Made by a program: the position numbers and the translations under genes. From IMG/VR virus record IMGVR_UViG_3300000101_000014, positions 1 to 62,025 of that record: a DNA stretch of 62,025 nucleotides; one strand, 5' to 3'. How positions within the stretch are numbered: position 1 is the first letter of the stretch; the number at the start of each line of letters is the position of its first letter. The notes under the pieces were generated by a model, which was not told where the DNA came from, searched no databases, and saw only the letters and a program-made list of their open reading frames with translations. Positions 4,428 to 24,114 of the stretch are shown in pieces. Source of the DNA: a virus.

Positions 4428-4598
4428 TTAGACTGTTTTGATCTCGATAATGGTATCTCTTATAACATCTTCGTATATACCATCATGGGTCAAAACGACA
4501 ATTCTTGCTGAAGTGGGGTTGTTGAGGTGAGCTGGCATAGTCCCTTTTATCTCTAGAACCATGCCTGTCTTCCAATGTTTGTAAGTTACTTTAACCAT
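4428..4598 (-). CDS. Hypothetical 56-residue protein
   Basis: Reads MVKVTYKHWKTGMVLEIKGT and ends IEIKTV, a small beta-rich protein. It is coupled by TAATG to the bilin reductase gene, so it is the distal member of that operon. Its stop lies just upstream of the 4371-4399 promoter. Function unknown; association with bilin synthesis is only positional. Confidence 0.55.
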   Translation of the reverse strand: MVKVTYKHWKTGMVLEIKGTMPAHLNNPTSARIVVLTHDGIYEDVIRDTIIEIKTV

Positions 4599-5251
4599 TA
4601 ATAAGGGAACTGTTTGTTTGTTTTGAAGTCAGTTAAGTAGTCTTCGGGAAAACCTAGGTTCAACATGACATTGAAACTATGGGGGTTCTGTAACTGGTTG
4701 TGACAGTACTTCTCTCGTGCCATACAGAACTCGTAATGTTCTGCATCATCCATGACTGAATACATAGGTATCTTTGATGCCTTGTCAAACCACCGTTCGA
4801 GGTTCTCTGAACCAAATGCACACAACTCTAGACACTCATCCTTTTCCTTGATATTACCCGCAGCAATCATGTTCTCAGAGAAGATCTCTTTTGCCCAGTC
4901 GGGAAGTGGTCGTGTCCGTGCCACCTGTTTACGTTCCATCTTCATGTCATTGAATCCTGTAGGAGACAGATCATGGAAACATCCTGTTACTTTCTTTTTA
5001 GAACAAACTACATCGAACCCATAGATGGGCATCGGAGTCTTTGACTTAGAGTATGCGTTGACGTGCATCATCCAGATACCGTGAGTATCTCTTTTGTCAA
5101 CAACACTTACATGACCCATATCTAGTACGCGACTCGACCAGAACCAGTTGTAGTGACCCAGATCTTCTCTGTGATCCACATTAGGACTGTCACAGTATAA
5201 TGTCATAGTACGTATCAGATCATCTTTGAGTTCTATAAAATCATTCCACAT
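4598..5251 (-). CDS. pcyX: Ferredoxin-dependent bilin reductase, PcyA/PcyX-like
   Basis: Reduces biliverdin IX-alpha to a phytobilin using ferredoxin electrons. At 217 residues it is somewhat shorter than cyanobacterial PcyA. Recognisable segments: PIYGFDVV (75-82) and HDLSPT (93-98), matching PLFGCDIV and ADLSPT of Synechocystis PcyA; WAKEIFSE (119-126), matching WGEIFSE; and a C-terminal KYCHNQLQN helix. His63 and Asp80 fall at the spacing of PcyA His88 and Asp105, the substrate-protonating pair; I see no clear equivalent of Glu76. It overlaps the heme oxygenase gene by 11 nt, forming a two-gene pathway. Oceanic-virus PcyX enzymes are reported to make phycoerythrobilin; the product here is inferred, not shown. 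Confidence 0.88.
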   Translation of the reverse strand: MWNDFIELKDDLIRTMTLYCDSPNVDHREDLGHYNWFWSSRVLDMGHVSVVDKRDTHGIWMMHVNAYSKSKTPMPIYGFDVVCSKKKVTGCFHDLSPTGFNDMKMERKQVARTRPLPDWAKEIFSENMIAAGNIKEKDECLELCAFGSENLERWFDKASKIPMYSVMDDAEHYEFCMAREKYCHNQLQNPHSFNVMLNLGFPEDYLTDFKTNKQFPY

Positions 5252-5753
5252 CTTCGAGTTCCTTTAACATTTCACCATGATATACAAAACCTTGGTAGAC
5301 TTGATCCCAATCAACCTTGAGTTTGCGTATAGATTTGATCGCAGTTGTACGGTCAGAGAAATGCCACATCCACTCCATCTCAGGGTTATTTTCGGAAATA
5401 ATCTGACCACCCATCAACATTGCCATGTAGTTCAAATAAACGTGAGAGTTCCACTTGTCTTTATCGTCTTCACAACCCACAATGTAGTTGATATATTTTG
5501 CGGTTCCTTGGGTCATAAGATCCCCATCGATCTTACCACCGAGTTCCCGTACACAGTCTGAGATCTTGTCGCACCGTGGTAGAGACGAATGTGGTAGATG
5601 TCGGAAGATGTTATGTTCCATTGCTTGAAAGATGAACCATTGGTTCACCATGTATGCAATACTTTGCGTGTCGGTCAGTTCACCCTTAAAGAGAGATTGG
5701 GAGAACGGCATCCTCTCGACTTCTTCGTGCACTTCTTTTATCTTCTCGTTCAT
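5241..5753 (-). CDS. ho1: Heme oxygenase-like protein
   Basis: Would open heme to biliverdin, the substrate of the adjoining bilin reductase. At 170 residues it is shorter than cyanobacterial HO1 (about 240). His9 in KEVHEEVERMPFSQ aligns with the proximal heme His of the KKSH.MAEN..F segment. FIFQAMEHN (40-48) matches FVYSAMEEE, and HVYLNYMAMLMGGQ (104-117) matches the distal helix AHSYTRYLGDLSGGQ with the two glycines kept. The distal Gly-Asp pair (human 139-140) is replaced by Ala111-Met112, which is unusual. The ORF overlaps the upstream nuclease gene by 68 nt; the start at 5753 is retained because it includes His9. Confidence 0.8.
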   Translation of the reverse strand: MNEKIKEVHEEVERMPFSQSLFKGELTDTQSIAYMVNQWFIFQAMEHNIFRHLPHSSLPRCDKISDCVRELGGKIDGDLMTQGTAKYINYIVGCEDDKDKWNSHVYLNYMAMLMGGQIISENNPEMEWMWHFSDRTTAIKSIRKLKVDWDQVYQGFVYHGEMLKELEDVE

Positions 5754-6420
5754 AGTAACTATCTATGGTCTCTTGTAATTTAGGATACCAATCATCACGG
5801 TGTTCAACGAAGACTTGTGGATCTCCCTCATCAACTGCAATAATAGTAACCAACTGAGTAATTGGCATACCCGTACGTTCTTCCCACATGATTGCATATG
5901 CAGTCTCTTGTTGGAAGTACTGTTTAATGTGTGCCTTCTGTTTAGTCTTACGTGAAGTCTTGAAGTCAATGATGGATAGTTTACCATCGAACTCTGCGAC
6001 ACAATCCACACGACCAGCGACTTTGAGGTGATCAGAGTACAGGGGTGCTTCTTGCAGGTAGACTTTACCAATACGAGTATCTAGTATATCTTTAACCTTG
6101 AGAAAGTCTGCATGGATATTAGGCATATAACCCTTGGTATACTTAGGGTCATTGTCGATATACTTCTCGATCAATTCATGAACTGCGGTACCACGTTGGG
6201 ATGCACGATAAGAGATCTTATTCGCTTCCTCTTCACCCACACGTTTGCGCCACATTGCGATACCCTTCTCAGAGAGTATAGACAACACTGTAGTAATGGA
6301 TGGGTAGTTACCGCCTTGTGGAAGGACATAACGTCTGCCATCCTCACTCTGGGTAGTGTCGAGGTCTTTATACCCCAGATCTACATCAACATGTTCGAAC
6401 ATTCTTGGTTCTCTATTCAT
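5686..6420 (-). CDS. PD-(D/E)XK nuclease, RecB/Cas4-like exonuclease
   Basis: A 244-residue nuclease with the family motifs in order: GTAVHELIE (78-85, His81), GRVDCVAEF (137-145, Asp139), IDFKTS (151-156, Asp152 and Lys154), and a QQETAYA helix (170-176) matching motif QxxxY. Likely processes host or phage DNA ends. It is the first gene after a clear promoter and precedes heme oxygenase in the same operon. Its basic C-terminus (KRSARRSRED) overlaps the heme oxygenase start. Confidence 0.85.
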   Translation of the reverse strand: MNREPRMFEHVDVDLGYKDLDTTQSEDGRRYVLPQGGNYPSITTVLSILSEKGIAMWRKRVGEEEANKISYRASQRGTAVHELIEKYIDNDPKYTKGYMPNIHADFLKVKDILDTRIGKVYLQEAPLYSDHLKVAGRVDCVAEFDGKLSIIDFKTSRKTKQKAHIKQYFQQETAYAIMWEERTGMPITQLVTIIAVDEGDPQVFVEHRDDWYPKLQETIDSYYEREDKRSARRSREDAVLPISL

Positions 6421-6431
6421 AGTAAGTGTAC

Positions 6432-6460
6432 ATTATACAGGGTTAGGGAGATGTTGGCAA
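6432..6460 (-). promoter_or_regulatory. Sigma70-like promoter for nuclease-ho1-pcyX operon
   Basis: Minus strand TTGCCA (6455-6460), 17-base spacer, -10 TATAAT (6432-6437), 12 bases before the ATG at 6420. The spacer lacks the GAAAAC motif of the early family, so this may be a separate class. Confidence 0.8.
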
Positions 6461-6463
6461 GGA

Positions 6464-7147
6464 TTATATAAAGAAATCGTCTTGATCTATGGTAGTGTTG
6501 TATCTATACCCCAGACTCTTTAGATAGTTTGACTGTTCACTCTTCCCACCTTCCCAACTGCGTTCGATCTGTAGTAGGGGTTTACAACGTTTTAACGTCT
6601 CAGTCATACCATACAAGGGTTGCATGATGTACCCTTCTGTATCCATCTTGATGAAGTCAACGTCCTCAAACTCATATGAATCAATAGTTCTTGTGTTAAT
6701 AATGATCTGTTGAGTCTCGTCAAACTGTTCTTTTCTACGTGGATTCTTCCATCTAGATTCGATCAGTGTCTTGGTCTGGTGGTTCTCGATCACATTACTG
6801 CCGGGATTCTGTTTATTAACCCAGATGGTTGCAGTACCCTCGATGTCACTGATACCGACATTGTGGATCTCTATCTGATCGTTGTTCTTTGTGTTCTCTT
6901 CCAGACACTCAAACAATGCGGGGACTGGTTCGAACGAGACAACCTTCTTAAATTGACTTGCAAACTTGAGAGCAGAACCACCAACATGACCACCAAAGTC
7001 TATGGCGAAGTCACGTTTACGAGTGAGTTTCAGTACTGTCTCCCACTGGTTACGTTCTGCTGGGCCGGGAAAATATAGATTTTTCCATAATCTCGCATCC
7101 GTCTTTTGGTAATCCGGATAAGCGTAACCTTCCTTGTTAAAAATCAC
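6464..7147 (-). CDS. FkbM-family methyltransferase
   Basis: A SAM-dependent O-methyltransferase, 227 residues. The Rossmann motif is FAIDFGGHVGGSALKFASQF, followed by VSFEPVPALFECLEEN and the FkbM signature VDFIKMDTEGYIMQPLYGM. FkbM enzymes methylate sugars or polyketides, so a glycan target fits the surrounding glycosyltransferases. It is the distal gene of the glycan island and overlaps the next gene by 4 nt. Confidence 0.88.
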   Translation of the reverse strand: MIFNKEGYAYPDYQKTDARLWKNLYFPGPAERNQWETVLKLTRKRDFAIDFGGHVGGSALKFASQFKKVVSFEPVPALFECLEENTKNNDQIEIHNVGISDIEGTATIWVNKQNPGSNVIENHQTKTLIESRWKNPRRKEQFDETQQIIINTRTIDSYEFEDVDFIKMDTEGYIMQPLYGMTETLKRCKPLLQIERSWEGGKSEQSNYLKSLGYRYNTTIDQDDFFI

Positions 7148-7803
7148 TTTGACATATCCGAAGGATCTTCACGTTCCTGTAGTTTACTCATCTTACCCTT
7201 GTACACCTCTACACGGACATTGTCAGGTTTAGGTATCTTCAGGTGATCGTGGTTGTGATGAAGAACAAACTCAGTATTAGGGAACTCGTTAAATAGATGC
7301 ATCCAGACGGGTCTCCAGTTACCTAACAAACGGTAGTTATTGTTATCACTACGATCACTCATCAACATTAGATCAGTGTAACTACGCATGTTGAAGTCGA
7401 AGATAGTATCGAATCCGTACATGTGAATAACATCTGCTTTATGTTTCTTCGCTGCGTAGTGGACTGCCATGTGACCACAGTTGAAATTGGTTGCGTTACC
7501 TGCATACTTGGGTACGTCAGTATAGAACTCTTTTACACGATGTGCATACTTGAGGTAGAACGTACTCCTCTCGTACATCCAGATCCTAGGTCTAGTACCC
7601 AATACCCACTCATACTGATCCAGTGCAAGTTCACCCTTGGTGAGTGCCTGCATCATCTTAAAGTCGACCATACATGTTGCGTAGACTTCACTAGGATCCA
7701 TTTCAAACGGAGGCATATTACAAAGAATCTTTATCCCATGACGGGGTTTCTCTTTGTAGTATTGTGCTTTATCACCATTACCGATTACATGACAAACTTT
7801 CAT
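7144..7803 (-). CDS. Rossmann-like protein, possible glycosyltransferase
   Basis: Starts MKVCHVIGNGDKAQYYKEKP and contains DVIHMYGFDTIFDF, a layout reminiscent of DUF115/MptE-like or GT29/GT42-type sialyltransferase folds. A His-rich stretch (LHHNHDHLK) lies near the C-terminus. The 4-nt overlaps on both sides place it firmly in the glycan operon. Activity is inferred from context only. Confidence 0.6.
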   Translation of the reverse strand: MKVCHVIGNGDKAQYYKEKPRHGIKILCNMPPFEMDPSEVYATCMVDFKMMQALTKGELALDQYEWVLGTRPRIWMYERSTFYLKYAHRVKEFYTDVPKYAGNATNFNCGHMAVHYAAKKHKADVIHMYGFDTIFDFNMRSYTDLMLMSDRSDNNNYRLLGNWRPVWMHLFNEFPNTEFVLHHNHDHLKIPKPDNVRVEVYKGKMSKLQEREDPSDMSK

Positions 7804-8471
7804 TTCCAGTATTCCTCAATCCAACTTTGTGGTTCATACGTTTTCATCGGAGTAGTAACCGATTCGTTCTGTGCTTGTATCACACTAGGTCTCCCGTGGA
7901 AACAGATTATCGATGTGTCTTCTAATCTGTCGGGATATACTTCATACTTATACGACTTTACTTTGTTAGGATACAGGTGTTGTAGTAGGTCACGTTTCTT
8001 TATGACAGAGTTTAACCACTCCCCATCTCCTCGAAATCTTTTGAGAACATCATCACCTGTAAAGAAGAACTCTGCACGTAACCAATCCATCGCAGCAGAT
8101 CTCCATGCCATCACACCCGACTGCATAACACCCTTGAGGTGTTGTTGATGTGAGTTTGCCACACCAAGATCTTCAATACCCATAAAGGTACCGTTGTAGT
8201 CCATCAACCAGTCTATCGATGATGTGATAATTGTGTCAAGATCTAGGTAAACAATACGACCACTAATCTTACCATCAAACAATTGAATCTTGTTCCACCA
8301 CCCTGTCATGCCGGGTTCTAGGATCTTGGTATCAACTCCATCAATTTTACGATCAGACAGACACACAAACTTATGTGGTCGAGTAGTGTTTCTTTCTACT
8401 GCACGTTTAAGTTTATGTACATACTCTTCAGAGAACTTGTCTCCCCACAACACACAACATACTGTAATCAT
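7800..8471 (-). CDS. GT-A glycosyltransferase
   Basis: A 223-residue transferase with a nucleotide-sugar fold. It begins with strand ITVCCVLWGD and has the metal-binding DxD in IVYLDLDTIITSS, with GWWNKIQLF before it as in GT8/GT32-like enzymes. It would add a sugar to a cell-surface or phage glycan. It overlaps both neighbours by 4 nt. Confidence 0.82.
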   Translation of the reverse strand: MITVCCVLWGDKFSEEYVHKLKRAVERNTTRPHKFVCLSDRKIDGVDTKILEPGMTGWWNKIQLFDGKISGRIVYLDLDTIITSSIDWLMDYNGTFMGIEDLGVANSHQQHLKGVMQSGVMAWRSAAMDWLRAEFFFTGDDVLKRFRGDGEWLNSVIKKRDLLQHLYPNKVKSYKYEVYPDRLEDTSIICFHGRPSVIQAQNESVTTPMKTYEPQSWIEEYWK

Positions 8472-9121
8472 AATAATTTATAGTCCTTGTTGTAACCATG
8501 TTTTGCAGAACATCCACCCTCATTTTGGATGGTACTGAAACTATCAACGGCAGCGACAGGCCACGGATAGTATTCTTCCAACCACGGGAACCATGCAGTA
8601 GTTAAGAACACGTCAGTAGGTGATGCGTGAGTCTTTGCGTGTTCAACGAGTGCCTTTGCACCCTTGGGGTTGATACGGTATGCATGGGCGCCTGGAAAGT
8701 ACTTCTTACTTGTCAACGGGTTTGTACCTAGTGTCGTAGGAGTATTATACTTCCCATAACTAGGTTGACCCAAAGAGATACAACCTTGGTAATTGATGAA
8801 CTCAGGTAGGTTACCGACACGAACTGCGTCATGTTCGAATACCTGAATCTCTTCGTTTTTGGCAATACAGTGTTTCCAGAGAGAGTAGTGAGACAGAAAC
8901 GCAGAGACACATCGGTCACGTCTAGAGATAAACTCTTCCTTGTCCATGTGTGAGAACCATCCCAGAGACATATTTTCTTTCTTTGCGATCTGCATAGGGT
9001 CATCTTCAGGAGTAACACCTGCGTACATTTCAACATTGTATTCTGGCATCGATTCAATACACCGTTCCGCAGCCTTCACTGACTCCGGTATATTCATGAC
9101 TGTAATCACATATGACTTCAT
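8468..9121 (-). CDS. Glycosyltransferase family 25 protein
   Basis: GT25/LPS-biosynthesis-like enzyme of 217 residues. It has the opening MKSYVITVMNIPES, the GT25 hallmark CVSAFLSHYSLWKHC, and VFEHDAV carrying the acidic ExD. PGAHAYRINPKGAKALVEH is the family's conserved C-terminal segment. Likely transfers a hexose to lipooligosaccharide or capsule. A second GT25 lies at 9864-10568 and a third, divergent one at 18128-18682. Confidence 0.88.
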   Translation of the reverse strand: MKSYVITVMNIPESVKAAERCIESMPEYNVEMYAGVTPEDDPMQIAKKENMSLGWFSHMDKEEFISRRDRCVSAFLSHYSLWKHCIAKNEEIQVFEHDAVRVGNLPEFINYQGCISLGQPSYGKYNTPTTLGTNPLTSKKYFPGAHAYRINPKGAKALVEHAKTHASPTDVFLTTAWFPWLEEYYPWPVAAVDSFSTIQNEGGCSAKHGYNKDYKLL

Positions 9122-9867
9122 GACATCATCTCTTTAATAATACGCATATCACCTTTCTTCACACATCGTGTAATGGTAGAAGATCCATCATAACATCGGT
9201 ACTTGACCTTCTTGTTTTCTAACAGAACTTGATACCATCCAAACTCTGCTGCAAGTAACTCTTTCTTATTATGTAGTGAATCCACTAAATCCGCATCCCA
9301 TACATCTGCATGGTGTATAATGATACCGCCATCATAGACCATATAGGTATGACCACTATTATCATGGTCTCTGTAGTTGTTAAACATCTTTCGTTTACCT
9401 TCAGTTGTACCGAAGTTCATGAATGAAATAACACTACGTTTATTATAACACAACTTTGCGTAATATTCAAATGATTCTGTAGGAGAAATAATGGAGTCGT
9501 ATCGTGCCCGTACTATCACATCGTACCCGTCCCCGTACTTCTTCATCATACGATTATGATTGAGGATCTGTTTGGTCTGGTGAATGTGACGTTCGGTATT
9601 ATCGAACTTTAGTTTCTTCTGCCAGTTCCATGTGTTACGCATTGCGGGGTTATCATCATAGGGGTGGTAGTCGATCTCGTACTCATCGATCACCTCTACC
9701 GTACCACCCCAACTCTCTATTAATTCGCGTCTAGTATTCCAGTCATCTTTCCATATGGTAAGAAAAAGATCTGCGTCAGGAAACGCATCCTTGAGTAAAT
9801 CGATTGAGAGAGTGAGAGTGTCGTCATCCAACCGTAGTTGTCCACCGACAATGATTGCGGTCTTCAT
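9118..9867 (-). CDS. Glycan-island protein, putative glycosyltransferase
   Basis: A 249-residue product starting MKTAIIVGGQLRLDDDTLTL, coupled to the upstream gene by ATGA. VIVRARYDSIISP and YDGGIIIHHADVWDADL resemble WavE-like or capsule glycosyltransferases, where the Arg/Asp-rich segment binds nucleotide sugar. I am not certain of the family. The upstream extension of this frame overlaps the preceding gene and is not used. Confidence 0.6.
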   Translation of the reverse strand: MKTAIIVGGQLRLDDDTLTLSIDLLKDAFPDADLFLTIWKDDWNTRRELIESWGGTVEVIDEYEIDYHPYDDNPAMRNTWNWQKKLKFDNTERHIHQTKQILNHNRMMKKYGDGYDVIVRARYDSIISPTESFEYYAKLCYNKRSVISFMNFGTTEGKRKMFNNYRDHDNSGHTYMVYDGGIIIHHADVWDADLVDSLHNKKELLAAEFGWYQVLLENKKVKYRCYDGSSTITRCVKKGDMRIIKEMMS

Positions 9868-10568
9868 GTTGTCGTAGTTGAAACGGTTCCTTGAACCCGA
9901 GTACAGTAAGTATGAACACACCCAAGACGGCGCGGTAGAAGTTGTCGACACATCAATGCGTCATTTGGCCATGCACCAAACTCTTTGACCAACTCGATCA
10001 TCATACGTGCAAGGGCAGGTTTGATGTAGTACGCAGAATGGCCAGGCAGTCCCTGTGGTACATCATCTGTATCAATTATTGGTACAGGACGAACACCTTC
10101 AACTGTCTGTAGAATGGTATGGTATGCTTCAGATCTACGTGTTGCACCCCGTGGATCGTTGAGAGAGATACCTTGATAACCGACATCATTCAACAACACC
10201 AAGTCTACCTTTCTGGTGAAGATTGCATCATGTTCCAGAATAATAATGGGGTGATTAACTTCTGCACAACGTTTCCAGAGTTTGTAGTGTGACAGAAAAC
10301 ATGCGATACGTTTCTTTCTGTCCACAGTCTTGTACGGGTGTTTACGCAACCCACTCTTTAGACAAAGTTGTGTTTTATCCCACGGGTAGTTCCATGTGAT
10401 ATCCTCTAGGATCATCTCATTGTCGACACGTTCCGGAGTGATTGCATCAAATGTTTCCACAACGAAATCATTACCCACTAAACCATTAGACAGTATAAGT
10501 TCAGAGGCGGCGTCTGTTGACTCTTTGTTGTCGGTCAGAGTGATGACGAATGCTTTTACTTTTTCCAT
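9864..10568 (-). CDS. Glycosyltransferase family 25 protein
   Basis: GT25 member of 234 residues: MEKVKAFVITLTDNKES, IACFLSHYKLWKRCAEV, IIILEHDAIFTRKV and GLPGHSAYYIKPALARMM. It has the same architecture as the 8468-9121 product, suggesting serial sugar additions by related enzymes. It overlaps the sulfotransferase gene by 13 nt. The C-terminus ends in a short Thr run. Confidence 0.88.
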   Translation of the reverse strand: MEKVKAFVITLTDNKESTDAASELILSNGLVGNDFVVETFDAITPERVDNEMILEDITWNYPWDKTQLCLKSGLRKHPYKTVDRKKRIACFLSHYKLWKRCAEVNHPIIILEHDAIFTRKVDLVLLNDVGYQGISLNDPRGATRRSEAYHTILQTVEGVRPVPIIDTDDVPQGLPGHSAYYIKPALARMMIELVKEFGAWPNDALMCRQLLPRRLGCVHTYCTRVQGTVSTTTT

Positions 10569-11068
10569 GTGTTTTCTCTCGCATTTGACTTACCGAATTG
10601 ATAACCTTTCTGAGGTAGTCCCAAGAAATCTACCAAGATGTCAGGGGTGTCTCCACTAGTGATACTCATCTCTAGAAAGTTCTTAGAGTCTTTGAAGTAC
10701 TCTCTCACGTCATCATTGTGACGTTTGTAAGCATCATGGTACTTCTTACGATCCCACTGTGGTGCACCATAAACATCTGTACGTAAGTTCATAGTGTAAC
10801 TTCCATACGTCCTTTCCTTCTTACGTAAGAAGTAAGGTTCTACACTGTCAACCCAGTTCTCTCTAGTCAGATGCACAAACTTAGAGTCGGGTCTCATCTT
10901 ATGCAACTCCTTGTAGTATGGTATCACCGGAATGTCTGACGCACCGTCACCAACACCCATCATCAATTGATCTAATGTGGGATAGTGTATAACATTCTTT
11001 TGATAACGTTTCAGAAAGTCAGAGAATGTAGTAGTACCGGTTCGGGACATGCCAGTGCAATATATCAT
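10556..11068 (-). CDS. Sulfotransferase-like protein
   Basis: A 170-residue protein opening MIYCTGMSRTGTTTFSDFL, the 5'-phosphosulfate-binding loop of PAPS-dependent sulfotransferases, with SKFVHLTRENWVDSV matching the 3'-phosphate-binding segment. It would transfer sulfate from PAPS to a glycan or lipid. It is shorter than most family members and may be a minimal form. It overlaps neighbours by 4 and 13 nt. Confidence 0.8.
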   Translation of the reverse strand: MIYCTGMSRTGTTTFSDFLKRYQKNVIHYPTLDQLMMGVGDGASDIPVIPYYKELHKMRPDSKFVHLTRENWVDSVEPYFLRKKERTYGSYTMNLRTDVYGAPQWDRKKYHDAYKRHNDDVREYFKDSKNFLEMSITSGDTPDILVDFLGLPQKGYQFGKSNARENTWKK

Positions 11069-11880
11069 ACTATAGATGTTCCATTATTCATTGTAGGCCA
11101 ATCAGACTTGGGTTTGTTTGCAATCGTGTGGTGCCATGCATTTGACTGATTGTCTGCACCACGCATCTGTATGTGTACCATCTTAGTATACTTTGTACGT
11201 GGATCTACTGCGGTACGTACAAACGAATTACCATTGTCATAGGGACACCACGTGATGTATCTATTCCATTCGTTATCCAGTTCTACAAAGTCAATGTCCA
11301 TAGAACATGCCATTGCATGGAGATATCCTTGGTCTGTACCATACACCTTACCACGACAGGAAGGATCACTCTCGACCATCTCTACGTATGGTAGGAAAGG
11401 TTCAAACTGTTCACGACACTTACGCAACCCTGCGTTGGAGTATAACACGACACCAGAGTTATATACCTTGGGTCTACCATCTGGATCTAGAGGTATTTCA
11501 CAACCATATTTTTCAGTAACCAGACGTGACCATGTCAACTCCGTAACCTTGTTGCACTGTTTCTTTAGTTTAGGGTCGAATCGATATTGAGTCTGAAGAG
11601 GTTCTGTCGCCATTGCGAGTTCACCTGTAAACGTATCGAAAATGTTTTCATCACACTTGTCCAGAGGAAAGATATCCGTGTCCGCAAACATGACGTTGTC
11701 GTACTCAAGGAATGCATCGTCAAAGACTGGTTTGAAACACCCATAGTATGGTGTCACTCTACCCAGTCCAAACTTCTTACCAAAGTTCGCGTTTAGATCG
11801 AATATGTAATCTGCACCGATCCTCTCTGCATATGCCTTCATGCAGTCCGAACCGTATTGTGCAGATGGTCGGACGTTCAC
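11065..11880 (-). CDS. GT-A glycosyltransferase, probable N-terminal frameshift
   Basis: A 271-residue frame starting at a weak GTG, with GADYIFDLN, the DxD motif VMFADTDIFPL and KVYNSGVVLYS typical of GT8-like transferases. The usual first strand is missing from this frame. The preceding bases in another frame, from GTG at 11914, read SKNLIYQYWDGERP, which matches the N-terminus of related proteins (compare 12839-13522). A single-base indel near 11855-11870 would join them. This could be a sequencing error, a decayed gene or recoding. Confidence 0.75.
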   Translation of the reverse strand: MNVRPSAQYGSDCMKAYAERIGADYIFDLNANFGKKFGLGRVTPYYGCFKPVFDDAFLEYDNVMFADTDIFPLDKCDENIFDTFTGELAMATEPLQTQYRFDPKLKKQCNKVTELTWSRLVTEKYGCEIPLDPDGRPKVYNSGVVLYSNAGLRKCREQFEPFLPYVEMVESDPSCRGKVYGTDQGYLHAMACSMDIDFVELDNEWNRYITWCPYDNGNSFVRTAVDPRTKYTKMVHIQMRGADNQSNAWHHTIANKPKSDWPTMNNGTSIV

Positions 11881-11906
11881 CGTCCCAGTATTGATAGATT
11901 AGATTT

Positions 11907-12842
11907 TTACTCACCGTAATGTCTCCGGTACCATTGGACAAAGTTATTTACTCCTTCTTCAATAGAGGTCTTAGGTTTATACCCAATACTCTGTAACTTG
12001 GTTGTATCTGACGCAGTCGTCTTTGCATCTGCGGGGTGTTTAGGGCCATACTCAATGATTGCCTTCTTACCCAAAGAGTCTTCGATTGCGTCCACAAATC
12101 GTTGCAACTCTACTACTTCACCACGACCGATAGAGTACATATCACGAGGTGTCATATTATCGACTACACATTCTATACCCTGTACGATATCATCAACGTA
12201 TGTAAAGTCTCGTTGCATATCACCGTTGTTGAATAGAGTAATCGGTTTACCTGCAAGTATGTTCTTAGTGAAATCAAACAGTGCCATATCAGGTCGACCC
12301 CAAGGGCCATACACTGTGAAGAATCGTAGACCAACTGCATTAGGTATCTTAGAGATGTGGAACTGCGACTCAGTGATTGCCTTGGTATAACCATAGGGGT
12401 TGATCTGAGGATACAGGTGGTCTGGTTCTCCCCAAGGAAGTTCATTGCCATGCATAACACAGGATGTAGACGCATAGATAACGTTCTGTATGTCACTTGC
12501 TTCACAGGCATTGATAAGATTGAGAGTACCGTGACAGTTGGTGTCGATATATTCACCTGCATTACTCATAGAGTAACGTACACCTGCCATCGCGGCAAGG
12601 TGTATTACCATGTCAGGTTTGGTCTTACTGACATAATCGGTCAAGTCTAGTTTATCACGAAGATCTCCAACTCGGAATCCAACACCAGTTTCCCGTAGAC
12701 ATGCCACACGTTCTTTCTTCAAGAGAGGTTCGTAGTAATTGTTGAGGTTGTCGAAACCGAATACCTCATGACCCAATTCTTTTAACCTAAGTGCAGTATG
12801 CATACCAATGAAACCGGCGATACCGGTGATCATAATCTTCAT
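11907..12842 (-). CDS. NAD-dependent nucleotide-sugar epimerase
   Basis: Short-chain dehydrogenase-type epimerase of 311 residues. The NAD loop TGIAGFIG is at 6-13, the catalytic Ser/Thr region ASTSCVMHG at 124-132, and YGYTK supplies Tyr150 and Lys154. FTVYGPWGRPDMALF and RDFTYVDDIV are typical of UDP-glucuronate 4-epimerase or UDP-glucose 4-epimerase. It makes an activated sugar for the adjacent glycosyltransferases. Exact substrate unresolved. Confidence 0.92.
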   Translation of the reverse strand: MKIMITGIAGFIGMHTALRLKELGHEVFGFDNLNNYYEPLLKKERVACLRETGVGFRVGDLRDKLDLTDYVSKTKPDMVIHLAAMAGVRYSMSNAGEYIDTNCHGTLNLINACEASDIQNVIYASTSCVMHGNELPWGEPDHLYPQINPYGYTKAITESQFHISKIPNAVGLRFFTVYGPWGRPDMALFDFTKNILAGKPITLFNNGDMQRDFTYVDDIVQGIECVVDNMTPRDMYSIGRGEVVELQRFVDAIEDSLGKKAIIEYGPKHPADAKTTASDTTKLQSIGYKPKTSIEEGVNNFVQWYRRHYGE

Positions 12843-13522
12843 TCAATTATTCCTTTTTGTACTAACTTTCTGTAGTTAAGTATCTTATCCTGTTTAGGGG
12901 ATGGTCTCCCCGGCGTGTTCTTCATTTTACGGCGAACATGGATTATATATCCTTCATCTACGTTTTCCTCAAACGATGATCTGTTCCACTTGTCGTCATC
13001 TAGGTACAATGAGGGATCTTCTTTTAGATCTGCACGTACTGCGAGACGGTGCATGATACCCTCGTCTTCGTAGTTGTTATGAAACTGTTTGATCTCATGT
13101 TCGTGGATCTGTTCACGGAGTTTGATTCTGATATCTTTCTCCAGCCGGTAGATTGAACCACCCCAGTATGGATATCGTTCGTCACCTAACAGAGGGAAAC
13201 GATTGACCAGTTTCTTTCTCAGGGATGGTTGGATACCATAGTGTCTACCAATACCAGTATCATCTGTAAAGATGTTCTTGGTCAAACCTTTACGAGTGAA
13301 CATGTCAATGTCCATCATAACCACGATGTCATAACTATCGAACCTACGATCCAGCATAACCATCTTCTGACAGGGCGCACTCAATCCCTCACGGAAAGCG
13401 TTACCTTGGACTAACTCATAGTCCGCACCACAGAACTCTGCATATTCTTTGATGGACTTCTGAGACTTCTTCTCTAACTCACCCATTGGGCCAGTCCAGT
13501 GTTGCAAGATTATATATTTCAT
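12839..13522 (-). CDS. GT-A glycosyltransferase-like protein
   Basis: 227 residues starting MKYIILQHWTGPMGELEKKS, with GADYELVQG and the DxD motif IVVMMDIDMFTRKG. C-terminal GYIIHVRRKMKNTPG is basic. It is a paralogue in style of the 11065-11880 and 17340-18131 proteins. The 4-nt overlap with the epimerase gene suggests coordinated expression. Confidence 0.75.
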   Translation of the reverse strand: MKYIILQHWTGPMGELEKKSQKSIKEYAEFCGADYELVQGNAFREGLSAPCQKMVMLDRRFDSYDIVVMMDIDMFTRKGLTKNIFTDDTGIGRHYGIQPSLRKKLVNRFPLLGDERYPYWGGSIYRLEKDIRIKLREQIHEHEIKQFHNNYEDEGIMHRLAVRADLKEDPSLYLDDDKWNRSSFEENVDEGYIIHVRRKMKNTPGRPSPKQDKILNYRKLVQKGIIE

Positions 13523-13896
13523 TATAACTCTACACCTCTCAATAATAATTCATGTTGCATACATGCTTTATGTGTGGGGTTCACGTTGAGTTTTAGTACT
13601 GCTTCAAGATGAGCAGTATCCATTTCAGCAATAGTTACATATTTAAGTGGCTGATCACCATCGATGCCATACGTTCCCCACTTTAAAACAGACGCTTGAA
13701 TAATATGCGGAGCGTCATCATAGAGACATAAGTCTTCTTCATCACCATGTGCACTACGCCGAACATAGGCTAACCCGCCATCAACCATGTATTCTTTACC
13801 ATTGGCATCAGTATGTGTCTTATAATCGTGACGATGCGTTGATTCTAAGATCGTTCCGTCAGGAGTTTGTATGGCATTTTTAATTAAACTCTTCAT
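13522..13896 (-). CDS. Hypothetical 124-residue protein
   Basis: Starts MKSLIKNAIQTPDGTILEST, His- and Asp-rich near the N-terminus (THRHDYKTHTDANGKEY). It lies between two sugar-metabolism genes with 1- and 4-nt overlaps but lacks any fold I recognise. Similar proteins occur, in my recollection, scattered in marine phages outside glycan loci, so the location may be incidental. Confidence 0.6.
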   Translation of the reverse strand: MKSLIKNAIQTPDGTILESTHRHDYKTHTDANGKEYMVDGGLAYVRRSAHGDEEDLCLYDDAPHIIQASVLKWGTYGIDGDQPLKYVTIAEMDTAHLEAVLKLNVNPTHKACMQHELLLRGVEL

Positions 13897-15254
13897 CGGG
13901 TTCTCTCACTTGATAAAAAATATTCTAGATCTTCTGGTGTACCCAGACCCCACATACCATTTGCGGTGTGAGTGCGTATCTCTTTACAGTCTGCGATTGC
14001 TTCATTGAACACAGGACACACATAGAACTCACCATTGACTCTTATGTCCTTTTCGATCATCTGTTCTGCATACTTTACAAAATCAGATCCGTGTTTCCAG
14101 TAGTAGTATCCCACCGTGGCATTGTCACTGATAGGGTTCTTCTCTGCAACCTCAGTCACAAAGTTATTTTCATCTATCTTCGCAAACGACCACTTGGGGT
14201 GTGTTGCTTTGAATGTTACTATACCACCGTCTGCAGCAGTCTCTTGCATCTCATACATGAACTGTGTAGGATTCCAGTCGACCCATTGGTCGCTGTTTGC
14301 AAAGAACAAAGGGGAATCATTGTCTATGTAATCCTTAGCGAGTAAGGCAGTACATGCAGCACCTTGTGTCATCTCATCTACTTCTACTATTATACAGTTT
14401 GGAGCGATCAATGGCAACATATTTTCGAGATGAAAACGTTCACGATGTTCTCTCTGTACAACAAAGATGAAGTTTGCGTCCAGTCCTAAGTTCTCTACCA
14501 CTACCTGTATCATGGGTTTACCATTGACATCGATCAAGGGTTTAGGAAAAGTGTACCCTGCTTGTTGAAAGCGAGAACCTGCACCCGCCATAGGTATTAA
14601 AACGTTGAGTTTTTCATCTTTCCATTTGTTATTCATAGGGTTCGCCAATCTCTGTAGTTTAGGTAGTATGTTTTCTTTTGTCACTTCGGTAGGGTTTGCA
14701 ACACGTATGCAAGATGCACCAGATCTCTTTGCCGCCAACAATCCAGGCGGGGAGTCTTCGATGATAACAGTCTCTTCGGGCAGAAATCCGTACATGGACA
14801 TTGCTGTCCAATACATCTCGGGGTGTGGTTTGGAGTTTTTAACGTGATTGTTTGACAGGACAATTTTGCAGTAGTCTAACAAACCTGTCTTCTCTAACGC
14901 AGAGTATACAGTTGGTTTTATTGAGTTAGAACACACACCGATAGTGTATCCTAGTTCAACAAGTTCTTGCATAAGTTCTATTGCAGAGTGGTTTACAGGT
15001 ACACCGTCCAGTTCTTTTACTGTAAGTTCCTGTTTATTTCGGAATATATCTTCGTGTAACTGGGAAGGTAGACCCTTTAGTTCGGTTAGTAATTCTAACT
15101 TCTCTAAGGTCTTTCTGCCATCATATATGTTTCGATGTTCTTCGGGGGTGATCGCATAGTCTTCACCGAGCGCATAGTTTAACGCTCTGTAGTGAATGTC
15201 TTTTGCGTCAATTAACACCCCGTCTAGATCGAAAAGGATTAGTTTTGTATTCAT
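13893..15254 (-). CDS. HAD phosphatase / nucleotidyltransferase fusion
   Basis: A 453-residue two-domain enzyme. Residues 1-205 form a HAD hydrolase of the beta-phosphoglucomutase type: FDLDGV with nucleophile Asp9 and Asp11, VCSNS, and IIEDSPPGLLAAKRSG. Residues about 213-450 form a nucleotidyltransferase of the sugar-phosphate type: IPMAGAGSRFQQAGY, then FPKPLIDVNGKPM and NSDQWVDW. The fusion could dephosphorylate or isomerise a sugar phosphate and activate it to an NDP-sugar for the island. It heads the run that includes the epimerase and transferases. Confidence 0.9.
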   Translation of the reverse strand: MNTKLILFDLDGVLIDAKDIHYRALNYALGEDYAITPEEHRNIYDGRKTLEKLELLTELKGLPSQLHEDIFRNKQELTVKELDGVPVNHSAIELMQELVELGYTIGVCSNSIKPTVYSALEKTGLLDYCKIVLSNNHVKNSKPHPEMYWTAMSMYGFLPEETVIIEDSPPGLLAAKRSGASCIRVANPTEVTKENILPKLQRLANPMNNKWKDEKLNVLIPMAGAGSRFQQAGYTFPKPLIDVNGKPMIQVVVENLGLDANFIFVVQREHRERFHLENMLPLIAPNCIIVEVDEMTQGAACTALLAKDYIDNDSPLFFANSDQWVDWNPTQFMYEMQETAADGGIVTFKATHPKWSFAKIDENNFVTEVAEKNPISDNATVGYYYWKHGSDFVKYAEQMIEKDIRVNGEFYVCPVFNEAIADCKEIRTHTANGMWGLGTPEDLEYFLSSERTR

Positions 15255-15296
15255 AAGTATAATCTATAATCATCACGTCACTGTTATATAGATGCA

Positions 15297-15638
15297 TTAT
15301 AATCCGCAAGCTTCAGTAATCTTTTCTAATCCACCAACATATACCCAGTTCTCACCATTGTCGTTATGAGTAAACAATTGTGGTGTCAACCGCATATTTG
15401 GTATCTTTGCACGAGCCAGTTCATGTGACGGATCGATTTCAACTTGACCAACATAATCGGGGTCTTGAGTCTCCGCGATAGTCATCAGATCTTCTTGTTC
15501 TTCAAGAGTGAGGTTTTCAAGGTCAACCACTTCGATTGAATCATCTGATCCCGCAAGAAGATAGTTTTCTATCGATTCTTGCGCCCCGTTACAGTATACA
15601 CAATGACCTTCACCAACACGTATTAAGTAGTAGTTCAT
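15297..15638 (-). CDS. Glutaredoxin/thioredoxin-like protein
   Basis: 113 residues with CVYC at 13-16 near the N-terminus, as in glutaredoxins, and MRLTPQLFTHND supplying a cis-Pro-like element. The middle is acidic. A 42-base gap follows before the HAD fusion gene, containing AT-rich promoter-like sequence without a clear consensus. It may reduce ribonucleotide reductase or a sugar-modifying enzyme; the partner is unknown. Confidence 0.75.
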   Translation of the reverse strand: MNYYLIRVGEGHCVYCNGAQESIENYLLAGSDDSIEVVDLENLTLEEQEDLMTIAETQDPDYVGQVEIDPSHELARAKIPNMRLTPQLFTHNDNGENWVYVGGLEKITEACGL

Positions 15639-16234
15639 GGGTAGTAACTCCTTATTGCTAAACCGGAATAAACTCCCTCACTACAATAGATTGTAGGTAG
15701 ATTGAGGTCGACACAGTAATACCCAGCTTCGTTAAACACATACTCCCATTCCTCTCGTGTCAATCTGAGTCGATGAGTGCGGTCTTTTCTGGAACATTCC
15801 AAAACATAATCTTCTCCCTCTTCTGCACAGATAGGCATTCGGAACACTATGGTTTCAGTCTCTAAAACATTAAGTAAGTCTAAGACCTGATCCATGTTCA
15901 TATGTTCCAATACATCTAATGCAAAGGTGAGACCATATTCTTTATCGGGGTCGATAGAGTTGCTTACGTCTAGTCCTTTCTCCCTACACTGACTTAACGC
16001 CCATTCACTGATATCAACACCACTCACATCCTCGTAACCTTCGTTTTCCATTGCTTCGATCACGAAACCGACTGCACAACCAAAGTCCAATACAGGGCCT
16101 TTGTTGAGTCCAATCTTCTTCAACAGATCGTTGATGTCTGCTGCGAGTCTTTTGTAACGATCTCCTCGTTGTAGGAAATCGATATAGTTCACTGTACTAT
16201 AATATGCTTCACCGAAATCTGAATCTTTCATCAT
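15635..16234 (-). CDS. Class I SAM-dependent methyltransferase
   Basis: 199 residues with motif I PVLDFGCAVGFVIEAMENEG, VSGVDISEWALSQC, and LTFALDVLEHM (motif post-II/III). It resembles UbiG/Methyltransf_11 enzymes that modify small molecules or sugars. It overlaps both neighbours by 4 nt and belongs to the radical SAM sub-cluster of the island. Confidence 0.88.
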   Translation of the reverse strand: MMKDSDFGEAYYSTVNYIDFLQRGDRYKRLAADINDLLKKIGLNKGPVLDFGCAVGFVIEAMENEGYEDVSGVDISEWALSQCREKGLDVSNSIDPDKEYGLTFALDVLEHMNMDQVLDLLNVLETETIVFRMPICAEEGEDYVLECSRKDRTHRLRLTREEWEYVFNEAGYYCVDLNLPTIYCSEGVYSGLAIRSYYP

Positions 16235-17343
16235 GCAAAGTTCCTATCATCTTCACTCATCTGTTGTGCAACGGTGTGAAGAAGTTTGTTGTTGTTAAAA
16301 TAAAAACAGTTGGGACATGCTTCTTTCCAACCACCAGATCCTGCGCCTCTTATGTTATAGGGTACACCTGTTTTTGCGTATTGTATATTACAAGTATCCC
16401 ATATTTCTAACACATTGTCAATAGACCCAAGAGAAAAATCTAGGTCATATGTCCGTTTCTCAAGTACGTGACTCGTGCACACATACACCTGATAGTCTCC
16501 GCCATCGGGATGTGGCGCAATGTATGGACGTGTAAGACCCACATAACAACCATCAGCATACGGTGTTGCGTTATCCCAGATGTCCTTGATAAAGAACTTG
16601 TTATCCACATCAATCTGTTTAACAACCTCTTTCCACTGATTCTGTACTTCTACCTGTGCACCATCAATCAACGCATTACCTGCAAGACGACAGAACTTGA
16701 TCTCTGGATTGAGTTCAATCAACCTCGCAATCTTCTTGATCGACTCTACGGTCGTACCTGCGTAGGCTTTGTTGGTACGTGACAACGCATCAGGGACACC
16801 ATTAGTACCGTCATAGATGATGTACGATAGTCCTATCTTATCTTTTGGAAACGAACCAAAGTCATAGTCTTCTGGTTCACACTTCTCATCTAACTTGATT
16901 AGACTAACCCGTATCCACTTGAGGTGAGGATATACCTCTGGTCTGAGATGACGTTCTAACTTCTCTGTATTGGTAATGATACCTACATCGAATCCATACT
17001 TGGAGGCAAGGAGAACCACATCGTTGATGTTCTTCTTCGATACCTTGTCACGATACAACATGGGATTACCACCACCAGTAATCTCTATTGCCTTTGCACC
17101 TAACTTATGGAAGTCTTCAAACAACTTCTCGATCTTCTCAAACGGGATATAACTCTTGAGTGGACGAGCAGCAACAGAACAGAACGGACAATCACTATCA
17201 CAGATCTCGCACAAACATAGTTGTATGTTGATCGGTTTAAATGTGTCTTCGTACTGAATGGAGTACAATACATCTGTGTGTTGCAGATACTTGTCACCCC
17301 ATGTTGCGTACTTCTGGGTCTTCTCTTCATAACTTTGTGTCAT
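16231..17343 (-). CDS. Radical SAM enzyme
   Basis: 370 residues. The 4Fe-4S motif CxxxCxxC is CDSDCPFC at 48-55, with SAM-binding GGGNP near 90-94. C-terminal GGWKEACPNCFYF carries a CxxC, hinting at an auxiliary cluster as in SPASM/twitch enzymes. Reaction unknown; it may modify a sugar or peptide. Its need for iron-sulfur clusters is notable beside the phage IscU/IscA genes. Confidence 0.85.
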   Translation of the reverse strand: MTQSYEEKTQKYATWGDKYLQHTDVLYSIQYEDTFKPINIQLCLCEICDSDCPFCSVAARPLKSYIPFEKIEKLFEDFHKLGAKAIEITGGGNPMLYRDKVSKKNINDVVLLASKYGFDVGIITNTEKLERHLRPEVYPHLKWIRVSLIKLDEKCEPEDYDFGSFPKDKIGLSYIIYDGTNGVPDALSRTNKAYAGTTVESIKKIARLIELNPEIKFCRLAGNALIDGAQVEVQNQWKEVVKQIDVDNKFFIKDIWDNATPYADGCYVGLTRPYIAPHPDGGDYQVYVCTSHVLEKRTYDLDFSLGSIDNVLEIWDTCNIQYAKTGVPYNIRGAGSGGWKEACPNCFYFNNNKLLHTVAQQMSEDDRNFA

Positions 17344-18131
17344 ATCATTTCCATGAGTGCAGCGACATTTTCCCCTCTATCCGGCAACAAATCTTTTAAA
17401 AAGAAGTGTACGAAACAACATGTCGCAATGTTTTCGTTCGCGGTAAATAACCCGTTCCATTTCTGATCCATATGTTTAGTAGGGATCTTATATTTCTTCA
17501 AGAAGAAGTTAAGTAGTGTTTGGTCAGTAGACCATTTCCATGGCCCTATGCCATTAACAAAGTCCATGAACTCATACCGTTGTATGAACTCTGTCGGTGT
17601 TTGGTTATTTAGGTAGGGACGGAACAGAGATGAGTTGATTAAGATCAAACCCATGTTAAAAAACTCGAACCCACGGTCATTTGGTTTGAAGTCTACCTTG
17701 TTACATTGCAATGTCGAGTATTGCATATGACTATAATTCTTGATTTTATCGACATATCTTTGTGATATGTTCATGTCGCGTTCACATACTGCACCGAACG
17801 CATGGTCTGTACCGAAGTCTTCAAAGATGTTTGGTGCGTCTTCGCGGATGAGGATATCAGCATCAACGATCGCGATCTGATCATACTCATTGAGGAAAGA
17901 GAATGCATTCTCCTTCTCGTAGATAGGTAGGAAACCGCCATGTTTCTTCCACGAGTCCTCTGATCTATTACTCATGAATGGATCTGGACGTATGTTCAAT
18001 ATAGGAGTTTGTTGTACCATATGGATGAATCCATACTTCTTACAGTACTGACTTACAGATTCAATGCAGTGCTGGTATAGTTCTGAGTTCTTCGCTTTGC
18101 CTAGACAAACTTGATATACTAATCTCTTCAC
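17340..18131 (-). CDS. GT-A glycosyltransferase-like protein
   Basis: 263 residues with first strand RLVYQVCLG, DxD motif IAIVDADILIRED, GAVCERDMN and the NMGLILINSSLF segment typical of GT8-like transferases. WSTDQTLLNFFLKKYKI fits the family's C-terminal part. It overlaps both neighbours by 4 nt. Confidence 0.8.
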   Translation of the reverse strand: MKRLVYQVCLGKAKNSELYQHCIESVSQYCKKYGFIHMVQQTPILNIRPDPFMSNRSEDSWKKHGGFLPIYEKENAFSFLNEYDQIAIVDADILIREDAPNIFEDFGTDHAFGAVCERDMNISQRYVDKIKNYSHMQYSTLQCNKVDFKPNDRGFEFFNMGLILINSSLFRPYLNNQTPTEFIQRYEFMDFVNGIGPWKWSTDQTLLNFFLKKYKIPTKHMDQKWNGLFTANENIATCCFVHFFLKDLLPDRGENVAALMEMI

Positions 18132-18682
18132 TTTTTCTTATGCTCTATTGTTGTTCCTATAGATCTATTCTGTACTTGATAGACATGGTCAGTCTCAAAT
18201 ACCCCTTCTTTAGTACCGTACCCGTGGATTGTACCATCAGAGTTCCACGTAATCTTTTTGATTGACTTTACATCATTCACCATTCTGGTTGCGATGTCAG
18301 GTGTTAAGTAGTATGCAAGGCCAGGCAGTCGTATCTTGTTCTTACCCGTATGACCTAAACAGATCATACCGTGTTGATCCCATATACGATCAGGTATAGG
18401 TTTTACCAATAACGCATCATGTTCTATGATTATGATTGGTTTCTTTCTTGCCTTTGCCCATAACTCTACGTGACTATACCACACTGCTTTCTCGGTCGGT
18501 GTAAACTCTATTGTATCACGTTTCTTACCAAAATGCAAGTATCCTTTACTCTCCATTGTTTCTGGAGTGATTGCATTGAAGAACTTGAGGTTATATCCAT
18601 TCCATGACTCCTCTACTCTCCCACGATAATACATCGATTGCGGAGAAGAAGGCATTTGGATCATCCATACATCAGGCCTCAT
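18128..18682 (-). CDS. Glycosyltransferase family 25-like protein
   Basis: 184 residues starting MRPDVWMIQMPSSPQSMYYR. It carries AVWYSHVELWAKARKKP and IIIIEHDALLVKP, matching the SHY.LWK and ExD segments of GT25, and LPGLAYYLTPDIATRMV. I chose the Met at 18682, which gives an 11-nt overlap with the radical SAM gene; the longer frame adds residues with no match. Confidence 0.82.
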   Translation of the reverse strand: MRPDVWMIQMPSSPQSMYYRGRVEESWNGYNLKFFNAITPETMESKGYLHFGKKRDTIEFTPTEKAVWYSHVELWAKARKKPIIIIEHDALLVKPIPDRIWDQHGMICLGHTGKNKIRLPGLAYYLTPDIATRMVNDVKSIKKITWNSDGTIHGYGTKEGVFETDHVYQVQNRSIGTTIEHKKK

Positions 18683-19652
18683 TCTGATAGTCACGCAGAT
18701 TGAACTCAGTGCCATGCATCTTCATAAGATCGCGTTCGTGGTTTGTGTACACTAGTACCTCTGGGTCGTCTATTAGAAAATCACACGACTTACAGAAATC
18801 AGGATAATCTCCGGAAGTGTGTTGATCTCGTAGTTTAGAATATTCCTCTCCAAAGAAGATGGACTTGATATCAGTTTCACTTGTGTGTCCTAGGACTGCT
18901 TCCTCATCTCTACCAAGTACTTGACAACACGGATGGACAGCACCCTTCTTGCCTTCCAATCCACCTGCACGGATTACAACATCTGGAGAGAAGGGTCTTC
19001 CACAAGTCTTCACTGCTCCTTTACGTACACCAGACTCAGAGATGTCAGTGACACCCGACCAGTTGTGCATCTTCCATATTTCTGTTTTGACATCGAGTTC
19101 GTCAACGATACGTTTGTAATGATCCAACTCAAAGTCTAGATTGTCGTTGTCTGTGATTAGATGATATGTAGACACAACGCACTCACTGTTCGTCTCTTTG
19201 ACATAATCCCGCATTTCTTTTACTTTGGCCCATGTGTTATCAAAGTTACCTGCAATACGGTTGTACATCCACTTGTCATATGCTTCGACATCATACCCAA
19301 TCCAAGAGAATCGATAGAAGTCAAGACCTGCATCTACGCAGTCACGCATGAACTGACCTTCCATACGATAACCATTCGAGAAGATAAATGCCTTCGCACC
19401 ATACTTCTTAACGATTTCGATGTACTTGGGTAGATTGCGATTGAGTGTTGCTTCACCGGAACCATCGAGATTAACAACACGTAGACCGTACTGTGCACAG
19501 TCTGCTACATTGTCCTCGAACTCTTGGAGCGACATCTTCTTGAGGAAGTCTTTGTGTCGTCCACCTGTTCGTACGTCTTGAGGGCACATAGAACATGAGT
19601 AGTTACAACCACCATTCACTTCAATCACTGCACGATCAATTTTAAAAGTCAT
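18672..19652 (-). CDS. Radical SAM protein with SPASM-like C-terminus
   Basis: 326 residues. CNYSCSMC (16-23) binds the catalytic 4Fe-4S cluster, and NLDGSGEATLNRNL is the SAM-binding GEP-like motif. Downstream cysteines (KTCGRPF, HPCCQVLG, DFCKSCDFL) match a SPASM domain with auxiliary clusters. Such enzymes modify peptides or sugars (epimerisation, dehydrogenation). It is the second radical SAM enzyme within 2.5 kb. Confidence 0.88.
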   Translation of the reverse strand: MTFKIDRAVIEVNGGCNYSCSMCPQDVRTGGRHKDFLKKMSLQEFEDNVADCAQYGLRVVNLDGSGEATLNRNLPKYIEIVKKYGAKAFIFSNGYRMEGQFMRDCVDAGLDFYRFSWIGYDVEAYDKWMYNRIAGNFDNTWAKVKEMRDYVKETNSECVVSTYHLITDNDNLDFELDHYKRIVDELDVKTEIWKMHNWSGVTDISESGVRKGAVKTCGRPFSPDVVIRAGGLEGKKGAVHPCCQVLGRDEEAVLGHTSETDIKSIFFGEEYSKLRDQHTSGDYPDFCKSCDFLIDDPEVLVYTNHERDLMKMHGTEFNLRDYQNEA

Positions 19653-20490
19653 CTATTTTATCCATTAATTGTTTCTTATAACGTCTTGCACGACCCTCTA
19701 GATGTTTTTCGTTCTCGGGTAGTCTATATAGGTAATCCCAAAAACAGTTGTCAGGGTCGTGTGGTTTGCTGAAATGAACACCCTGCGGTGAATGTACCTT
19801 TGCAATACTACTACCACCCAATGTGATAACAGGTTTACAAAAGTTACGAGCAATGTACTGCCACATCCCATCATAGAAGATGCAGAACTTAGAAGTACTT
19901 ATATGGTATATTGCCTCACGTACGGGCGTACGATAGGATAACTCAACGAGTTCGTATCCCTTGAGTTCAAGAAACATGATGATCCTTTCCCACTCTTTCA
20001 CAGAGAAAGTCATCTTCCATTTCTTACCACCCGAAGGTATCTCTCGATTGAAGGTTGGTCTCCAGAACACTACTTTGTTTCGAGAACGTTGGAATAACTC
20101 TTTACGGAATAACCAGTGGTGGAAGGTGAGTACCTTCTGTTGATCTCGTTTGTGACCAAAACCTCGCCACCGTAGTTTCTTTATCTCCTCATCCGTTGAG
20201 TTGAAGATATGATTCACAGTAACGTTATGTGCGTTATGGTACATACCCTCAAGAATGTGAGTACGTTCAATGATGGTTTCTGGGTCTTCATAATGGTAGA
20301 CATAGTCCTCATCATGCTCCCAGAAAACATTCATTTTAATCGGATGGTCGTACATCTTAGACAATGCGTGAGCTGCATTGAGACCATACAATATATCCCC
20401 GACACCAATTGTACCGCGCCAGTCTATCTCGTAATCCTCGTTGACCCTTATGGGTTGACCAGAGATAGGTTCACGATACACTTCGTTCAT
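19642..20490 (-). CDS. GT-B glycosyltransferase, heptosyltransferase-like
   Basis: 282 residues. TIGVGDILYGLNAAHALSKM resembles the N-terminal substrate loop of GT9-type enzymes, and FCIFYDGMWQYIARNFCKPV followed by ITLGGSS fits the nucleotide-sugar domain. Probably acts on LPS core or a related polymer. It is the promoter-proximal glycan-island gene and overlaps the radical SAM gene by 11 nt. Confidence 0.7.
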   Translation of the reverse strand: MNEVYREPISGQPIRVNEDYEIDWRGTIGVGDILYGLNAAHALSKMYDHPIKMNVFWEHDEDYVYHYEDPETIIERTHILEGMYHNAHNVTVNHIFNSTDEEIKKLRWRGFGHKRDQQKVLTFHHWLFRKELFQRSRNKVVFWRPTFNREIPSGGKKWKMTFSVKEWERIIMFLELKGYELVELSYRTPVREAIYHISTSKFCIFYDGMWQYIARNFCKPVITLGGSSIAKVHSPQGVHFSKPHDPDNCFWDYLYRLPENEKHLEGRARRYKKQLMDKIDDF

Positions 20491-24106: not shown

Positions 24107-24114
24107 TATTTATA
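24107..24114 (-). promoter_or_regulatory. T4-type late promoter
   Basis: TATAAATA on the minus strand, an exact match to the T4 late consensus recognised by gp55-RNA polymerase. It overlaps the stop codon of the carbamoyltransferase gene and sits 28 bases before the GTG of the P-loop kinase gene. Confidence 0.8.

Follow-up and report, generated by a model that had tools for sequence, protein, structure and literature searches.

The window, by which we mean the whole 62,025-base stretch of DNA analysed here (a linear virus record that is a fragment), encodes a heme oxygenase (HO) and, directly behind it, a ferredoxin-dependent bilin reductase (FDBR). The pair itself is already known from phages infecting marine bacteria that do not photosynthesise; judged by sequence, the window contains a second, separate lineage of it, composed of an HO of the group that we designate class II and an FDBR with serine at a position held by an acid in PcyA and PcyX, and we found no description of this lineage in the literature. 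Sequences and structural models make it likely, though far from certain, that the two proteins form a working module converting heme to biliverdin and biliverdin to a phytobilin, with altered active sites and an uncertain product that is probably not PCB.

The pair is part of an operon with the following features:

6432–6460, minus strand: sigma-70-type promoter, TTGCCA-17 nt-TATAAT, matching the consensus at 11 of 12 letters and predicted to drive the operon
5686–6420, minus strand: PD-(D/E)XK exonuclease (phrog_298, E=1.5e-77), a phage core gene that precedes the cassette
5241–5753, minus strand: class II HO, 170 aa, identified by PF01126 and fold
4598–5251, minus strand: FDBR, 217 aa, identified by PF05996 and fold, in the sister clade of PcyX
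4428–4598, minus strand: 56-aa open reading frame (ORF), lineage-restricted and no regular component of the cassette

All four ORFs and the promoter were found where the initial annotation, made from the sequence alone, had placed them, and its calls of a PD-(D/E)XK nuclease, an HO-like gene and a reductase of the PcyA/PcyX branch held up: the first matched phrog_298 as listed, the HO matched PF01126 (E=1.6e-10, 41.6 bits; curated cut-off 23), and the FDBR, for which that annotation had named a profile search as a check on family membership, matched PF05996 (E=8.6e-9, 35.8 bits; curated cut-off 31). The ORFs are co-directional and overlapping. The 3' end of the exonuclease gene runs 68 nt into the HO gene, the FDBR start lies 11 nt inside the end of the HO gene, and the 56-aa ORF meets the FDBR stop as TAATG, an overlap of 1 nt. 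The order exonuclease-HO-FDBR is repeated across fifteen related loci (L001-L015); the promoter letters are unchanged in L001 and read TTGACA/TATAAT, 12 of 12, in L004. The 56-aa ORF is confined to the sub-lineage of the window (L001-L004), and profile searches for its family returned no match. Because it is missing outside these closest relatives, the earlier suggestion that its product could be a partner of the pair is not supported, and we rejected it.

The genomic setting agrees with the original description of a T4-like phage; the phage is aquatic. The window encodes T4-like replication proteins (UvsX, a DnaB-like helicase, primase and DNA polymerase), as well as a class I RNR with glutaredoxin, PhoH and a NifU-like protein. 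The accompanying claim that photosynthesis genes are missing is weak from the window alone, since this is a 62-kb fragment. However, psbA was found neither in the window nor in phage Mosig, and it was also missing from two class I contigs and from a further 26 contigs of class II, the longest of 221 kb; these records are mostly fragments. No ferredoxin is encoded in the window, and neither ferredoxin nor ferrochelatase was detected among the class II contigs checked. AlaS (valaS) was absent from 20 records, including contigs of 176 kb and 221 kb, and no tRNA was found in the window. The nearest named phage is C48C1 (UvsX 73% and exonuclease 62% identical), for which no host is recorded and no mention was found in the literature. 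The NifU/IscU-like Fe-S scaffold of the window (33162-33575) is 79% identical to that of C48C1, and a phage-encoded carbamoyltransferase lies at 24110-25897. Adjoining the operon upstream, on the same strand, is an extended series of genes for FkbM methyltransferases, glycosyltransferases and nucleotide-sugar enzymes (6464-20490), which suggests glycan or DNA modification.

Cassettes of hemO and pcyX, with or without alaS, have been described in T4-like phages resembling pelagiphage Mosig (Wegner et al. 2024, PMC11480375). They were published from many marine and freshwater contigs, and the host of Mosig is Ca. Pelagibacter ubique (SAR11) (PMC11480375); the statement of the initial annotation that the hosts of such pairs were unknown and their genomic surroundings scarcely documented has thus been overtaken. 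Activity has been published for marine PcyX and shown for a freshwater pair; the HO and FDBR of phage CB_2 are both enzymatically active (PMC11480375). In Mosig (EXVC030M, MT647606) the pair occupies 39650-40886 and, as in the window, the HO gene lies directly upstream of, and overlaps, a PcyA/PcyX-branch FDBR gene in a T4-like phage without psbA. In contrast to the window, Mosig retains the canonical residues in its HO (GDLSGGQ) and Asp55 in its PcyX, its HO and FDBR are 28% and 37% identical to ours and fall in other clades, and its cassette is flanked by 2OG-Fe(II) oxygenases and neck genes with no exonuclease beside it. When 16.7 kb was compared, the cassette was the sole match between Mosig and the window. 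Mosig also encodes a Fer2 ferredoxin, and its ORF near the cassette annotated as a 'putative ferrochelatase' (L023, 4354-5124) gave no PF00762 match. The peat-bog hemO-pcyA-alaS cassette of CB_2 likewise combines a phage HO and FDBR with a non-photosynthetic host (PMC11480375), but it includes valaS, its FDBR is a PcyA making PCB, and its HO may belong to class I or class II.

The loss of canonical distal residues from the HO is a feature that the initial annotation had not recorded. AF2 models of the HO and FDBR were built with alignments of relatives. The HO model (pLDDT 95.6, pTM 0.92) has HmuO and HO-1 as its best PDB folds (TMq about 0.8), with which it shares the proximal His, the distal-helix glycines and the Arg183 equivalent. 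In human HO-1 numbering (in brackets), the window HO retains H9 (H25), H104 (H132), Y106 (Y134), G115/G116 (G143/G144), R143 (R183) and Y87 (Y114), and has F42 (Y58), N108 (R136), A111 (G139) and M112 (D140) as substitutions. Unlike HmuO and HO-1, it thus has replacements at the equivalents of Asp136/140, Arg132/136 and Tyr58, the distal hydrogen-bond network, and comprises 170 residues as against about 215.

To place these changes, HO and FDBR genes were gathered from IMG/VR via single-sequence and alignment queries. Since class II motifs served in part to retrieve the class II sequences, and of 384 FDBR relatives the best 80 were retained, the counts given here describe a sample and not abundance. 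The 78 unique HOs comprised 42 of class I, including Mosig, and 36 of class II, including the window. Arg136, Asp140 and Tyr58 are present in 42/42 class I proteins, and all three are missing from 36/36 class II proteins, in which position 136 is Asn, position 58 is Phe, Met or Leu, and position 140 is hydrophobic (F 13, M 11, L 7, W 2, V 2, I 1). Both classes have His132, Tyr134 and the GG pair without exception; the heme-ligand His25 is present in every alignment row that reaches it, and the heme-ligand and pocket residues, which include the Arg183 equivalent, are invariant in all 36 class II HOs. Tyr114 is also kept in class II, and 28/36 of these proteins have His in place of Asn210. His159 was considered as a class II innovation and rejected, as canonical bacterial HOs share His there. 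Class II HOs are short (about 167-192 aa) and form a single, long-branched clade (100/99) that contains neither class I nor bacterial HOs. Their signature was not seen among the readable HO loci of a 399-genome Pseudomonadota sample, which were either HO-1-type with GDLSGGQ or BphO-type; many bacterial HOs are of this BphO type (EGSxLG), without the distal Asp.

The reductase, too, is missing an acidic side chain important in its characterised relatives. Its AF2 model (pLDDT 93.2, pTM 0.90) is closest to the folds of PcyA and PcyX, and its best phmmer match in the PDB is PcyX_EBK42635 (5owg; E=1.2e-37). Residues corresponding to PcyA His88 (H63), Asp105 (D80) and His74 (H47) are kept, and the first two are invariant in the aligned FDBRs; in a subgroup of the sister clade (L052, L054, L056, L063, L066 and L071) the His74 equivalent is Asn. 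Ser49 of the window occupies the position of Glu76 in PcyA and of Asp55 in PcyX, Asp55 having been named as the PcyX-specific catalytic residue (PMC11480375). This placement assumes a register in which His53-Leu54-Asp55 of PcyX corresponds to His47-Val48-Ser49, as judged by the position of the conserved His and by strand parity in the model. An alternative pairing of PcyX Asp55 with window Asp52 was ruled out, since Asp55 lies two residues past the conserved His (AHLD), which leads to Ser49; in the model H47 and S49 share parity on strand 43-53 and Asp52 does not. MAFFT sets PcyA Glu76 against Asp58 owing to a 3-residue gap, and we preferred an alignment without this gap, anchored on the conserved His.

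The initial annotation had called the reductase PcyX-type and proposed a tree to examine this. In that tree canonical PcyX forms one clade (97/98), and the window FDBR falls in a distinct, long-branched clade (100/100), nearest to PcyX but outside it. This sister clade consists of 22 class II partners, the window included, with Ser at the Ser49 position in 22/22. A deeper, weakly supported grouping (83/48) holds six FDBRs with Glu at this position, also class II partners. The phage class I partners group with the crystallised PcyX_EBK42635, L123 excepted, and Asp is found at the Asp55 position in 23 of the 24 class I rows aligned; L153 deviates through a gap artefact, its sequence containing HLD. 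The window FDBR shares with PcyX_EBK42635 the fold (TMt 0.83), the equivalents of His69 and Asp86, and D58, and differs in its sister-clade position, in Ser for Asp55 and in a missing 8-residue loop. The term PcyX-type is therefore not supported in the strict sense, and the protein equally lacks the Glu76 that marks PcyA.

These data bear directly on an alternative in which the window carries the canonical hemO-pcyX cassette of Mosig, with an ordinary HO and a true PcyX, an enzyme type that takes biliverdin to phycoerythrobilin (PEB) by way of 15,16-DHBV. The shared gene order and overlap, PcyX_EBK42635 as best PDB match and the published activity of marine PcyX (PMC11480375) are all compatible with it. 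We nonetheless regard it as unlikely, because the HO network is replaced in 36/36 class II proteins and kept in 42/42 of class I, because Ser stands for Asp55 in 22/22, and because HO and FDBR each fall in a separate, long-branched clade.

Class II HOs located by an HO-only pattern scan were adjoined by an FDBR gene in every locus examined save L049 and L055, the latter ending at the contig end. The HO gene lies directly before the FDBR gene, mostly overlapping it, with a gap of about 105 nt in L004, and throughout the sample the class of the HO and the clade of its FDBR partner agreed without exception. Estimates of dN/dS from unsaturated or moderately saturated pairs were about 0.05-0.07 for HO and 0.08-0.11 for FDBR, many further pairs being saturated at synonymous sites. 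By this measure class II HO and FDBR are under strong purifying selection, and the low dN/dS together with the recurring order argues that the locus is not a product of chance. That the genes are decaying or resemble the two families fortuitously, as the loss of key residues from both proteins might suggest, is most improbable and already refuted in practice by dN/dS values of about 0.05-0.15, frames that stay open across dozens of contigs, a gene order and promoter that are conserved, and confident AF2 models.

The 116-kb contig G017 is syntenic with the window: 35/90 window ORFs have matches there, many 50-85% identical, and the exonucleases are 69% identical. At the same site, behind the exonuclease and a glycosyltransferase gene, G017 carries a class II HO and a Glu-type FDBR that are 41% and 26% identical to those of the window. 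The intervening gene (L043, 3043-3984) encodes a TET-associated (TAGT-family) glycosyltransferase of PF20691, connected with DNA hypermodification. A Glu-type FDBR at the same locus of a syntenic relative implies that the cassette has been swapped, and the sequences fit a fixed genome site at which either the whole pair or just the FDBR has been replaced. A scan of genome contigs for FDBRs identified one gammaproteobacterial MAG contig. A gammaproteobacterial MAG (genome G029, MED685) has a class I HO-FDBR pair, which may be bacterial or may come from a phage contig within the MAG, and a second canonical HO (L153, L154).

The D140A variant of human HO-1 becomes a peroxidase (PMC5623701), which casts real doubt on heme opening by class II proteins, and G139A, according to references within PMC5623701, shifts activity between oxygenase and peroxidase; Met and Ala occupy the two positions in the window HO, counting against a working HO. 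The Asp is not a universal need, since plant HO, which lacks both this Asp and the Arg and works by means of a His/Ala network (PMC7948506), and BphO-type HOs do without it. Plant HO-1 (GmHO-1; PMC7948506) and the BphO/HemO-type enzymes thus resemble class II as HO-family members without the canonical distal Asp, but GmHO-1 has His at that position where class II phage proteins have a hydrophobic residue, and BphO-type enzymes lie far from the separate class II clade in the tree.

It is accordingly conceivable, if rather improbable, that the HO-like protein is no longer an HO and serves as a heme- or bilin-binding carrier, a sensor or a peroxidase-like enzyme, the FDBR taking biliverdin from elsewhere or another tetrapyrrole. 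The loss of D140, R136 and Y58 while the heme ligand and pocket persist would suit such a role, as would the peroxidase behaviour of D140A and locus L049 (3995-4513 of the 221-kb contig G018), where a solo class II HO gene is followed by 62-aa and 717-aa ORFs. No FDBR match was found anywhere on this contig, so that the HO may act in some capacity that involves no bilin reduction. However, the class II HO gene occupies the same place before the FDBR gene as in class I cassettes; each of 17 records scanned, up to 221 kb, contained one HO and no second, canonical one; and the Glu-type partner FDBRs, with all PcyA-like catalytic residues, imply a supply of biliverdin. The pairing with both Ser-type and Glu-type reductases is most easily explained by an HO supplying the substrate common to FDBRs. 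Given this same placement and the two biliverdin-needing types of partner, class II HO most likely still opens heme, as far as sequence comparison can indicate.

We therefore propose that the cassette would act as an auxiliary metabolic module for tetrapyrrole catabolism. The HO would bind host heme via His9 and open it to biliverdin, freeing Fe and CO, and the FDBR would draw electrons from host ferredoxin to reduce biliverdin to a phytobilin. Barred from the Asp140-Arg136-Tyr58 proton relay, the HO would work through a rearranged distal pocket with the kept Tyr87 and His159, a new Asn108, and Met, Phe, Leu or Trp replacing Asp. The FDBR would operate with neither Glu76, the acid directing 18-vinyl reduction, nor Asp55, its counterpart in the chemistry of PcyX. 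As 18-vinyl reduction needs Glu76 (PMC10151467) and the window has Ser49, PCB is an unlikely product; the candidates are PEB, phytochromobilin and 15,16-DHBV. The phage might gain released iron, redirected heme or a chromophore. A more specific reading, to which we give only tentative credence, is that class II represents a natural HO without a distal acid that opens heme (or handles heme or bilin) via a hydrophobic pocket and is paired with a reductase devoid of Glu76 and Asp55, so that phages of non-photosynthetic bacteria would obtain a bilin, or a mixture, that neither PcyA nor PcyX makes.

The purpose of bilin synthesis by phages of non-photosynthetic bacteria has been described as an open question (PMC11480375). 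The lineage described here adds a second, independent and strongly selected sequence clade of the pair, and the finding that related phages carry a Ser-type or a Glu-type reductase at a single genome position suggests, at the level of sequence, that the bilin product itself has been exchanged. The natural replacements of this lineage affect residues held to be catalytic in work on HOs and FDBRs. If active, these enzymes would provide natural test cases for oxygen activation by HOs without Asp140 and for how FDBRs set regiospecificity.
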